Shown here: one piece after another, positions 19,260 through 43,541 of the stretch | Layout of the letters: each line of letters opens with the position of its first letter | Position numbering within the stretch: the stretch's first letter is position 1 | From: Candidatus Nanohalococcus occultus | GTDB lineage: Archaea > Nanohalarchaeota > Nanosalinia > Nanosalinales > Nanosalinaceae | Direction: 5' to 3' | DNA length: 64,000 nt | Assembly (NCBI RefSeq): GCF_029207735.1 | Contig: NZ_CP104395.1 | Coordinates: 540,692-604,691, forward strand | Notes under the pieces: model-generated | The model's database searches: none | Seen by the model: the letters and a program-made list of their open reading frames with translations, nothing else | What the model was told of the DNA's origin: nothing | Translations under genes and position numbers: made by a program

Positions 19260-19766
19260 ATGAAGGCTCCAATTTGCAACGTATGCTTGAAGAGTGAGGG
19301 AGAACTCTGTAGCATGTGCGAGGAGAAATACGATGAAGGCGAGATTTCAGATGCCGACATCCGAGTTTCACGAATCCTACACACGCTAAGCGAAGAGTAT
19401 GGCTCACTACAGGATTCAGAAATTAAGAAAATCTTCGATATGGAAAACGTAACTGTTATCGCAACCGCTGAAGGCGACGGCGCCAAAGTAGTTGGACGTC
19501 AGGGAGAGATCGTCAAGAAGATCGCTGACAGAATCGATAACTCGATCAGAGTTGTCGAGGCAGCACAGGACGACATGGAAGTAATCAAGGGATTGCTTTC
19601 ACCTGCGGAAGTCGAATCGATCAACACAGTCTTCGCACCGGAAGGACAGTCCAAAAAGATTGTTGTAAGCGAAGAATACGAGGGAAAGATCAATCTTTCC
19701 ATCGAAGAGTTCGAGGAGATCATCGACGAGATAACAGGAACGAACTACAAGCTGAGCTTCGAATAG
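19260..19766 (+). CDS. NusA-like KH-domain protein with N-terminal zinc knuckle
   Basis: A 168-residue archaeal protein: a small zinc-binding N-terminus with CNVC (residues 6-9) and CSMC (17-20), a linker, then a KH-type RNA-binding domain at about 55-120 with the GxxG-like loop VVGRQGEIVKKIADRI. It resembles the archaeal transcription factors called NusA-like. TATTTAATTTTT about 30 bases upstream would give a leaderless start at 19260. It is followed by abce1, another RNA-machine gene. Confidence 0.75.
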   Translation: MKAPICNVCLKSEGELCSMCEEKYDEGEISDADIRVSRILHTLSEEYGSLQDSEIKKIFDMENVTVIATAEGDGAKVVGRQGEIVKKIADRIDNSIRVVEAAQDDMEVIKGLLSPAEVESINTVFAPEGQSKKIVVSEEYEGKINLSIEEFEEIIDEITGTNYKLSFE

Positions 19767-19844: not shown

Positions 19845-21656
19845 ATGAGCAGTAAAAAGAACTCGGATCGTTTCATCGTTGTAATCGATCAGGACAAGAT
19901 TGAACCGGATCTAGCCCGTGAGACAGTGATCAACTTCGATCCTTTGAACAGAGCGGGAAAGGAAGGCGGGTTCTACATAGATGATAAAGAGGAGTTACAT
20001 ATCGACGACGATGATGTGATGGCCGCCCACCGTATGGCTATCAAAAAGTATCCTTACGACAATGCGATCCGGATGGTACAGCTAATCAGCGAGGAGGAAG
20101 GCGAACCACTCCACCAGTTCGGGAACAACACCTTCCGGCTTTACGGCGCACCGGCCCCGGAGAAAGGAAACGTTGTTGGAATCCTAGGGGAAAACGGTAT
20201 CGGAAAATCAACCGCTTTAAACATACTAACAGGGGATCTCAAGCCGAACCTTGGAAGATACGATGAAGAGGTTGAATGGAGCGAGATCAAAAAACGGTTC
20301 AGAGGAACCGGATTACAACAGCATTTCAACAAGCTAGCTGAAGGAAACGTCGATGCCGCTGTAAAACCCCAGCAGGTCGAACGAATGCCTGATGCCTACG
20401 ACGGGAAGGTCCGGGATCTACTGGAGAAAGTACGCGACGCACAGGAAGAATCAGAAAGAAAAGATCTTGAGGCGCTAGCCGAGGAGTTCGAGGTAGCCAA
20501 GCTGATGGATCGGGATCTCGAGGAGCTTTCCGGCGGAGAGCTACAAAGAGTTGCGATCGCTTCAACCGCATTAAAGGATGCGAACCTGTATGTATTCGAC
20601 GAACCATCCTCATTCCTTGATGTACGTCAGCGTTTGAAGATGGCAAACAAGATAAGAGAGCTATCGGAAGATGCCGCCGTCTTAGTGGTTGAACACGACC
20701 TGGCAACCCTTGATTTGGTCTCGGATCGAATCCACGTATTCTACGGGGAGCCGGGAAGCTATGGAATGGTATCGAACACCATGAGCGCCAAAGACGGTAT
20801 AAACCAGTACCTTGAAGGCATGCTGGAGAGTCACAACCTGCGGATCAGAGACGAGCCTATCTCCTTCGATCGTTCGAAGAGAAGTCAGGTAGAGAAAAAA
20901 CGAGCAGTCATGGAGTACCCGCGCCTGGAAAAGGACTTCGGCGAAGGAGAGTTCAGCCTTGAAATCGAAGAAGGTGAAGTTCACCGCGAGGAGATCCTCG
21001 GTATCTTCGGTGAAAACGGGTTAGGTAAAACCGTCTTCGCAAAGATGCTGGCAGGGGTGATCGAGCCGGACAACACCGAATCACTCGATATCTCGATCAG
21101 CTTCAAACCACAGTACCTAGAGGCCAAAGACGAGACCGTCCGGGAAGCAATCTCTAAACACATCAACCCTCAGAACAAACGGTTCGAGGTACGGATCGCC
21201 GAGCCGCTCGGATTAGAAGACCTCTACGATCAGGATCTGGAAGAACTTTCCGGCGGAGAGCTACAAAGGGTTGGAGTAGCGATCTGTCTGGCCAAAGACG
21301 CCGATATCTACCTGCTGGATGAGCCAAGTGCCTACATGGACGTAGAGGCACGTGTAGAGCTAGGTAAAACCTTGAAACGGTTTGCGCGTAAAACCGAGAA
21401 GCCTTTGATGGTGATCGATCACGACCTGATGCTTCTGGACTATATTTCGGACCGCGGAGTAGTTTTCTCAGGAGAACCGGGAATAAAAGGTACGGCAGAT
21501 TCTCCGGAACGAATCGAAAACGCCATGAACGAGTTTTTGAAGGAAGTAAGTATTACCTACAGGAAAGACCCTGAGACCAACCGTCCTCGTGGAAACAAGC
21601 CGGGAAGCCAGAAGGACAAACAGCAGCGTAAATCCGGTCAGTTCTATGAACAGTAA
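19845..21656 (+). CDS. ABCE1/Rli1 ribosome-recycling ATPase lacking Fe-S cysteines
   Basis: A 603-residue twin-ATPase of the ABCE1 family, which splits ribosomes after termination together with aRF1 or Pelota. Both ATPase sites are intact: Walker A GENGIGKST (115-123) and GENGLGKT (near 389), signature LSGGELQR in both halves (near 228 and 468), Walker B VFDEPSSFLD and LLDEPSAYMD. In the family the first 75 residues bind two 4Fe-4S clusters through eight cysteines. Here that domain is present by length and pattern (KIEPDLARETVINFDPLNRAGK...), but contains no cysteine at all; the whole protein has one. The C-terminal tail is basic and Gln-rich. The protein must work without these clusters. Confidence 0.93.
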   Translation: MSSKKNSDRFIVVIDQDKIEPDLARETVINFDPLNRAGKEGGFYIDDKEELHIDDDDVMAAHRMAIKKYPYDNAIRMVQLISEEEGEPLHQFGNNTFRLYGAPAPEKGNVVGILGENGIGKSTALNILTGDLKPNLGRYDEEVEWSEIKKRFRGTGLQQHFNKLAEGNVDAAVKPQQVERMPDAYDGKVRDLLEKVRDAQEESERKDLEALAEEFEVAKLMDRDLEELSGGELQRVAIASTALKDANLYVFDEPSSFLDVRQRLKMANKIRELSEDAAVLVVEHDLATLDLVSDRIHVFYGEPGSYGMVSNTMSAKDGINQYLEGMLESHNLRIRDEPISFDRSKRSQVEKKRAVMEYPRLEKDFGEGEFSLEIEEGEVHREEILGIFGENGLGKTVFAKMLAGVIEPDNTESLDISISFKPQYLEAKDETVREAISKHINPQNKRFEVRIAEPLGLEDLYDQDLEELSGGELQRVGVAICLAKDADIYLLDEPSAYMDVEARVELGKTLKRFARKTEKPLMVIDHDLMLLDYISDRGVVFSGEPGIKGTADSPERIENAMNEFLKEVSITYRKDPETNRPRGNKPGSQKDKQQRKSGQFYEQ

Positions 21657-42305: not shown

Positions 42306-43541
42306 ATGAGCGAAGAAAAATCTAACTCGATGAACAAGTACCAGCTGAAAAAGTTGATCAAGAAGCTGGAAGGCATCCGCGGACGGAACACGGAGCTAGT
42401 ATCGCTTTACATCCCGGCAGGATACGACATGTCGAAGATTTCTGACTTTGTTACTTCCGAGGCTTCCGAGGCCGAATCGATCAAGTCCAAACACACCCGG
42501 AAAAACGTACAGGGAGCATTGGAGAAGATCGCACGTAAGGTCTCAGAAGAACACGAGACACCGGAAAACGGAGTGGTGCTTTTCGCCGGAAACGTCAGCG
42601 AAACGGAGGGTCGTCCGGATATCCAGATCTGGGAGGTTCATCCGCCGCAGACAATCGAGTCCAGAAGGTACAGATGCGACAAGGAGTTCGTACTGGAGCC
42701 GTTAAAACAGATGATCGTAGACGATAGAGTCTACGGACTGATCGTGCTGGATAAAAACGAGGCGGCGATCGGATACCTCCAGGGTTCCTCGATCAAGACA
42801 GAGTACAAGATGTCTTCGGAAGTACCGGGGAAGACCCGGGCAGGAGGACAGTCAGCCCAGAGATTCGCCCGTATACGAAAGCAGATGCTGAAAACCTTCA
42901 TGAAGGATATCAACGACAATGCGAAAACCGCTTTCCTGGAAAAAGCCCGTGAAGGCAAGCTTCTCGGCATTCTCGTCGGAGGACCGGGATGGACCAAAGA
43001 CAAGTTTGTCGATGAGTACATGCACCAAGAGCTGAAAGACGAGCTGATCGATGTAAAGTCCTTGAACTACTCGGGAGAGGAAGCGCTGGAAGAACTCGTA
43101 GAGAAGGCCGAAGAGTCACTTCAGGATGCTTCCGCGGTAAAGGAAAAGAACCTGGTTGAAAGCTTCTTCGAGAACCTGAAAGAGGAAAACGGGAAATCCG
43201 AGTACGGACTCAAGCAGGTCATCAAAGCCATGGACATGGGTGCGGTTGATACTGTTTTGATCAGCGAAGATTTCAACCATTACCGTGCGACCTACATCTG
43301 TGGGAACGAACACGAAAAAGAGGTCTACGAGGAAGAAGCCAAGATCAGCGAGAACGTAAAATGCGATGAATGCGGCGAACAGATGGACCTCGAGCAGATG
43401 ACCGACATAGTCGATATAATGGATGAAAAAGCCGAACAGATGGGAAGCAGCCTAGAGTTAATATCTACCGACCACGAACAGGGCCGCCGGCTCTACAACA
43501 TGGGAGGTATCGCAGCGATTCTAAGGTACCGGATCCGCTAA
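42306..43541 (+). CDS. prf1: peptide chain release factor aRF1
   Basis: A 411-residue class I release factor. GGQ lies at 180-182 in RAGGQSAQRFARIR and triggers peptide release. In the stop-codon-reading domain the NIKS loop reads SIKS (58-61), with an uncommon Ser in place of Asn; the YxCxxxF motif is YRCDKEF (122-128). The C-terminal domain includes a zinc-type pair CDECGEQM. It works with ABCE1 (19845), the unusual Fe-S-free one. An inverted repeat lies just before the start. Confidence 0.93.
   Translation: MSEEKSNSMNKYQLKKLIKKLEGIRGRNTELVSLYIPAGYDMSKISDFVTSEASEAESIKSKHTRKNVQGALEKIARKVSEEHETPENGVVLFAGNVSETEGRPDIQIWEVHPPQTIESRRYRCDKEFVLEPLKQMIVDDRVYGLIVLDKNEAAIGYLQGSSIKTEYKMSSEVPGKTRAGGQSAQRFARIRKQMLKTFMKDINDNAKTAFLEKAREGKLLGILVGGPGWTKDKFVDEYMHQELKDELIDVKSLNYSGEEALEELVEKAEESLQDASAVKEKNLVESFFENLKEENGKSEYGLKQVIKAMDMGAVDTVLISEDFNHYRATYICGNEHEKEVYEEEAKISENVKCDECGEQMDLEQMTDIVDIMDEKAEQMGSSLELISTDHEQGRRLYNMGGIAAILRYRIR

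Follow-up and report, generated by a model that had tools for sequence, protein, structure and literature searches.

ABCE1 is counted among the essential Fe-S proteins of all archaea and eukaryotes, and ranks among the chief reasons for the indispensability of Fe-S assembly. Its FeS domain and the cysteines therein are regarded as indispensable, both for the viability of yeast and for ribosome splitting in S. solfataricus (PMC8153317, PMC6656783). What, then, is to be made of a gene that encodes the two ATPase domains of ABCE1 and none of the eight ligand cysteines? Such a gene lies in the stretch of DNA analysed here, 64,000 nucleotides of the genome of Candidatus Nanohalococcus occultus (contig NZ_CP104395.1, positions 540,692 to 604,691), hereafter the window. 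Our search of the literature outside subscription journals and preprints found no prior report of a Cys-free ABCE1. We asked whether the gene is a genuine and sole ABCE1, how widely its state is shared, and which explanation fits it best.

A single ABCE1 with complete ATPase sites

The protein (Table 1) matched the NCBIfam equivalog PRK13409 with 706.9 bits against a cut-off of 469, with residues 11–602 covered. Pfam recognized two ABC_tran stretches in it, and neither Fer4_RLI nor Fer4. Both ATPase sites are complete: their Walker A motif, signature, Walker B glutamate and H-loop do not vary across the nanohaloarchaeal alignment; in addition to the NBD1 motifs listed in Table 1, the invariant columns include the NBD2 signature LSGGE (residues 468–472; L468–E472) and E253, H284, E493 and H526.

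The whole genome (G000) gave one match only above the PRK13409 cut-off. Furthermore, Fer4_RLI (PF04068) had zero matches across the 948,351-base single-contig genome, while four control archaea were positive in the identical search. With neither a second copy nor a Fer4_RLI domain in the genome, a paralogue beside a normal ABCE1 is ruled out. A preliminary description of the window, based on its letters, had recognized an ABCE1 with intact ATPase domains and pointed to a Cys-bearing second copy as what would make it a mere paralogue; the identification is borne out, and the second copy was looked for and is absent.

Table 1. Coordinates, in the window, of ABCE1, its main elements and two related genes
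Feature	Position	Strand	Basis
NusA-like KH-domain protein, upstream neighbour of ABCE1	19260..19766	+	PRK06418 133 bits, under cut-off 175; Pfam KH_5
ABCE1/RLI gene, 603 aa, ATG start, single copy in genome	19845..21656	+	NCBIfam PRK13409
Cys-free ferredoxin-like N-terminal domain, residues 1–84	19845..20096	+	0 Cys; predicted fold
Ex-ligand positions C1–C4 = I19, A24, V28, D32	19899..19940	+	Alignment columns IAVD; X4, X3, X3 spacing unchanged
D32-P-L-N-R36-A37 loop, Asp at C4 position	19938..19955	+	D32-P33-L34-N35-R36 invariant in Cys-free sequences
Ex-ligand positions C5–C8 = M59, H62, A65, Y69	20019..20051	+	Columns MHAY; M59, H62 invariant
NBD1 Walker A, GILGENGIGKS	20178..20210	+	Sequence; G112, G115, N117, G118, G120, K121 invariant
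NBD1 ABC signature LSGGE	20526..20540	+	L228–E232 invariant columns
aRF1, A-site partner of ABCE1	42306..43541	+	TIGR03676 442 bits, G000:583024-584223 (ORF 582997-584232 in genome coordinates)

The N-terminal domain is Cys-free and constrained

Residues 1–100 contain no cysteine, and the full 603-residue protein contains one. None of the eight canonical ligands is present, and the CX4CX3CX3C and CX2CX2CX3C motifs are both missing. The protein is an ABCE1 by orthology, as placed by the tree of the ABC body described below, and not as a canonical Fe-S member. A general loss of cysteine is ruled out as the explanation, since the genome retains 0.75% Cys and many CXXC sites.

The Cys-free domain is under strong purifying selection. 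Among the Cys-free proteins its mean identity is 0.71, as compared with 0.61 for NBD1 and 0.67 for NBD2, and its dN/dS is 0.019–0.039 in the three pairs with measurable, unsaturated dS. A domain that is conserved above the ATPase body, with so low a dN/dS, is not decaying, and decay was rejected on these grounds. In addition to the loop and ligand positions in Table 1, G38, G42-F43, V58 and P70 are invariant in Cys-free N-domains.

Some of these invariants have a counterpart at the ribosome. S. solfataricus ABCE1 touches uS12 of the 30S post-splitting complex through P25 and R28 (PMC7196836), which P33 and R36 match by position; the offset of +8 residues is our own mapping, from the identical ligand spacing and the numbering in that paper. 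By contrast, the rRNA-contact positions R2, K15, N17 and E19 (numbering of PMC7196836) are substituted in the Cys-free ABCE1. With these positions changed, the 30S contact of the Cys-free domain may be weaker or different. The preliminary description was right that all cysteines of the domain are gone, and its proposal that a domain kept by length is probably still used gains support from the purifying selection and from the retained uS12-contact residues.

An AlphaFold2 model of the protein, computed from a 56-sequence alignment, reached a pLDDT of 89.8 and a pTM of 0.87. In the N-domain the pLDDT was 72–93 except for residues 1–10, and the predicted elements were strands at 10–14 and 75–79 and helices at 21–29, 33–36 and 62–68; the helix at 21–29 is placed where the C1–C3 loop lies in the canonical form. 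The best solved match in Foldseek was P. abyssi ABCE1 (3BK7; TM 0.88 over 604 columns). Since the alignment is dominated by eight-Cys relatives, the model is compatible with a ferredoxin-like fold rather than an independent proof of it. Residues 1–102 folded alone and without an alignment were poorly predicted (pLDDT 49).

A probable single loss in the nanohaloarchaea

ABCE1 was obtained from 22 of 28 Nanohaloarchaeota genomes, always as one copy per genome. In two families, f1 and f5, all 21 ABCE1s lack Cys at every one of the eight ligand columns; f1 is the family of the window (19 genomes in 11 genera, with one partial ORF) and f5 comprises two genomes. Seven of the Cys-free genomes are single-contig. 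With 21 ABCE1s alike and seven of them from such genomes, chance or sequencing error is excluded. All eight cysteines are present in the f2 genome (L021) and in the Nanohalarchaeota MAG L060. In a tree built from the ABC domains with the N-domain left out, the Cys-free proteins form one clade (SH-aLRT 96) within Nanohaloarchaeota (98), with L021 and L060 outside it. The simplest reading is a single loss in the f1/f5 ancestor followed by vertical inheritance. Thus, what the preliminary description had seen in one protein holds for a whole clade, whose extent it had missed, together with the one-cluster counterparts described below.

The ABCE1s of f1 and f5 carry the acidic signature of salt-in life, with a DE/KR ratio of about 1.45 compared with 0.9 in f2 and L060. 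A single branch combines cluster loss, halophily and SufBD; this is one event, in which order and cause are inseparable.

Several further observations were made in passing. No ABCE1 above the cut-off was found in Nanohaloarchaeota family f4 (G003-G007), four of whose five genomes have aRF1 matches, nor in G249 (single contig, 99% complete), G236, G241, G256, G258, G276 and G280. The genomes without an ABCE1 match are 80–99% complete, and ABCE1 may not be universal among archaea. In two nanohaloarchaeal families, aRF1 is interrupted at about model position 174 by a long in-frame, intein-like insert (G012:C7:4278-6974 and G004:C3:5232-8003). Finally, the genome of the window contains, outside the window, one open frame that runs for 9,409 codons and includes 99 Cys (G000:C1:272206-300435, minus strand).

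Many ABCE1s of the Nanobdellota lost one ligand set

Outside the Cys-free clade we read 151 ABCE1s, 79 from named archaeal genomes and 72 from a sample of genomes spanning the domain. The eight ligand cysteines are in place in 142 of them, haloarchaea included. The nine exceptions are three one-cluster Woesearchaeota, four proteins with one or two ligands changed, and two, L113 and L106, that are exceptional only in appearance: the ORF of L113 is truncated by a contig end, and L106 has an intein-like insert at ligand C7, with all eight cysteines retained in its exteins. L106 is the ABCE1 of Terraquivivens tengchongensis, with the insert in frame 1, residues 467–847 upstream of the match. Two Heimdallarchaeota ABCE1s (L122, L129) have Val at C6 and an extra Cys after C8, and L361 has Glu at C6.

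In the Nanobdellota (Woesearchaeota and kin) we read 130 of 164 ABCE1s, namely the 30 best and about 100 lower-scoring matches; these were not randomly sampled, so the one-cluster share is not an unbiased frequency. All eight cysteines are found in 88 of the 130, and in five others the sole deviation is a C2 that seems to be misaligned. Eleven retain C4–C7 only and eleven C1–C3 plus C8 only, nine approximate these two one-cluster patterns, and six lack C5 alone. The ABCE1s with one ligand set lost are L066, L072, L123, L199, L209, L210, L212-L219, L222, L223, L226, L227, L231, L238, L241, L242, L246, L248, L250-L252, L254, L255, L257, L260, L273, L276 and L293. They show no acidic signature.

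In 25/25 ABCE1s with exactly four ligands lost (L066, L072 and L123 included), the missing set is either {C1,2,3,8} or {C4,5,6,7}, which we take to be the ligand sets of the two clusters in 2[4Fe-4S] ferredoxins. A random loss of four ligands would hit either set with a probability of 2/70, and, given the starred branches of the tree, each kind of loss requires five changes or more; chance is therefore excluded. Since the Nanobdellota repeatedly lost exactly one ligand set, the two clusters are separable in evolution, and a single cluster can be dispensed with.

Five one-cluster Nanobdellota ABCE1s of separate lineages (L212, L213, L214, L222 and L260) also have Asp at C4 and a DPxN loop. The N-domain identity of these Asp-C4 proteins is 0.32–0.39 to the nanohaloarchaea and 0.35–0.38 to eight-Cys forms. 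Since the two ranges are about equal, convergence is likelier than transfer of the N-domain as the source of the shared loop, and transfer is not favoured.

Alternative explanations

The preliminary description had linked the loss of cysteines to poor Fe-S supply in a reduced symbiont. There are reasons to take this seriously. The genome of the window is equipped to make Fe-S clusters and yet has few clients: it encodes one [2Fe-2S] ferredoxin and a single radical-SAM protein, the [4Fe-4S] enzyme Elp3, and the CX2CX2CX3C motif is absent from all its retained ORFs of at least 60 residues. Low iron, as distinct from absent assembly genes, is possible, and iron scarcity in brine, or oxidative stress, has tentatively been proposed for the cluster losses in haloarchaeal TFE-beta and RNAP subunit D (PMC5861453). 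However, the SUF genes, which were checked for absence, are there: SufB, SufD, SufS, SufU and SufC are all encoded at 345–357 kb, and the scarcity of clients may itself result from the same pressure. SufB/D occur in all 21 Cys-free f1/f5 genomes and were not found in f2, the eight-Cys sister family, nor in f3 and f4. One f5 genome (G008) has ten radical-SAM matches and its ABCE1 is still Cys-free. Even the trend in the Nanobdellota runs the opposite way, with SufB/D in 26/31 one-cluster genomes as against 22/43 eight-Cys genomes (Fisher p 0.006, uncorrected for kinship); with kinship corrected for by independent pairs, the sign test gave a median p of 0.22, so SUF presence is only suggestive as a driver of loss there. 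Since the SUF distribution in f1/f5, f2 and Nanobdellota is contrary to it, a lack of assembly genes is not the cause of the Cys loss, and poor supply in the wider sense is improbable. As far as sequences can tell, another point of the preliminary description does find support, namely that ABCE1 can do without Fe-S assembly. As a side observation, the SufB core of several Nanobdellota is split in an intein-like manner within open frames of 733–1267 residues (G042, G052, G060, G077, G089, G105, G108, G221, G228).

Could the gene then be an artefact of faulty sequencing or of a wrong gene model, or else a divergent paralogue next to a normal ABCE1? Nothing in favour of this turned up, and against it are the identical state in the 21 genomes, the one copy in each and the low dN/dS, which leave it a negligible chance. 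It might instead be argued that the domain binds another metal or cofactor, for example at a mononuclear site made of D32 and H62. These residues are invariant across the Cys-free ABCE1s and occupy ligand positions (C4 and C6) of one cluster, and Asp replaces C4 in the five Nanobdellota proteins as well. Yet they are the only two plausible hard ligands, as Met and Ala occupy the remaining ligand positions; the Nanobdellota Asp forms carry Met or Val aligned to C6; and D32 adjoins the uS12-contact P33, which could by itself account for its conservation. We regard such a site as doubtful. Equally hard to favour is a change of job, in which the protein would still bind the small subunit, serving perhaps in initiation or as an anti-association factor, and would no longer split 70S. 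The substituted rRNA contacts of the C1–C3 loop are in line with this, as is the report that deletion of the FeS domain yields merely a short-lived 30S complex (PMC6656783); furthermore, the five f4 nanohaloarchaea and several near-complete small genomes showed no ABCE1, so that some lineages may do without ribosome splitting by this protein. Against a changed job, the ATPase sites, signature motifs and N-domain are all strongly constrained, aRF1 is still encoded, and P33 and R36 are invariant.

A probable cluster-free splitter

We thus consider it probable that the one ABCE1 of this salt-in halophilic nanohaloarchaeon is functional, its clusters having been replaced by side-chain packing and its capacity for ribosome splitting retained. 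Both structural [4Fe-4S] clusters would have disappeared a single time, in the ancestor that f1 and f5 share. The ferredoxin-like fold would have been re-stabilized by ordinary packing at the ex-ligand sites, with the C1–C3 loop turned into a helix and with Asp at C4, Met at C5, His at C6, Ala at C7 and a bulky residue at C8; the domain would presumably hold no metal.

When the ATPase sites of canonical ABCE1 close, the FeS domain turns through about 150 degrees and enters a pocket formed by h44, the h5-h15 junction and uS12 (PMC7196836, PMC6656783). Closure of the two sites would likewise bring the Cys-free domain to the 30S pocket at uS12 and h44, and 70S would be split together with aRF1 or aPelota, independently of Fe-S assembly and by a protein not vulnerable to oxidation. 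The clusters of ABCE1 are viewed as structural and not redox-active (PMC8153317), and a domain with its shape and uS12 contact preserved could move in this way without them. The strong constraint and the residues now at the ligand positions, Ile, Ala, Val, Asp, Met, His, Ala and Tyr, are in keeping with such a replacement. The counterpoint is the published essentiality of the FeS domain and its cysteines (PMC8153317, PMC6656783).

As to the driver, oxygen and high salt seem better candidates than missing Fe-S assembly. Halophily alone was ruled out as the cause: salt is neither necessary nor sufficient, because the haloarchaea, which are also salt-in, keep eight Cys and the one-cluster Nanobdellota are not acidic. 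Oxidative or saline stress appears likeliest, because the cluster supply of yeast Rli1 is sensitive to reactive oxygen (PMC8153317), and because haloarchaeal TFE-beta works without an Fe-S cluster and the RNAP subunit D of halophiles has apparently lost its own (PMC5861453).

With less confidence, we lean towards a broader view, namely that recycling by ABCE1 has no mechanistic need of the Fe-S clusters. They would be structural staples, removed by DPANN archaea in whole ligand sets, either one of the two, ending in a cluster-free, fully active splitter in the halophilic nanohaloarchaea. A constrained cluster-free ABCE1 and natural one-cluster forms of both kinds would mean that the mechanical role of the domain is separable from its cofactor. 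New here are natural ABCE1s that extend the two-cluster form to one cluster and to none, and with this series the need for the clusters becomes directly testable. Moreover, the eight cysteines reportedly hinder labelling of the N-domain (PMC6656783); the Cys-free form offers an oxygen-stable protein for structural work and for labelling of this moving part.

Comparison with known systems

The ABCE1 of the window shares with canonical ABCE1/Rli1 (P. abyssi 3BK7, S. solfataricus, yeast Rli1) the domain order, the twin ATPase motifs, an N-terminal domain of like length and predicted fold, and the uS12-contact Pro and Arg. It differs in having 0/8 ligand Cys, a predicted helix for the C1–C3 loop and altered rRNA contacts. 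The one-cluster Nanobdellota ABCE1s (the three Woesearchaeota and those of 31 survey genomes) resemble it in that Cys were lost by ligand set and, in five cases, in the Asp at C4 and the DPxN loop. Unlike the nanohaloarchaeal proteins, however, they keep one ligand set, have separate origins in the ABC-body tree and are not acidic.

The closest parallel outside ABCE1 comes from transcription. In Haloferax volcanii TFE-beta and the RNAP subunit D of halophiles, as in the f1/f5 ABCE1s, a structural [4Fe-4S] cluster was lost from an information-processing factor of a halophile while the domain was retained (PMC5861453). These cases differ in that they concern transcription rather than translation and that the tfeB gene of H. 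volcanii is non-essential; the haloarchaea read here, unlike f1 and f5, have kept the cysteines of ABCE1.
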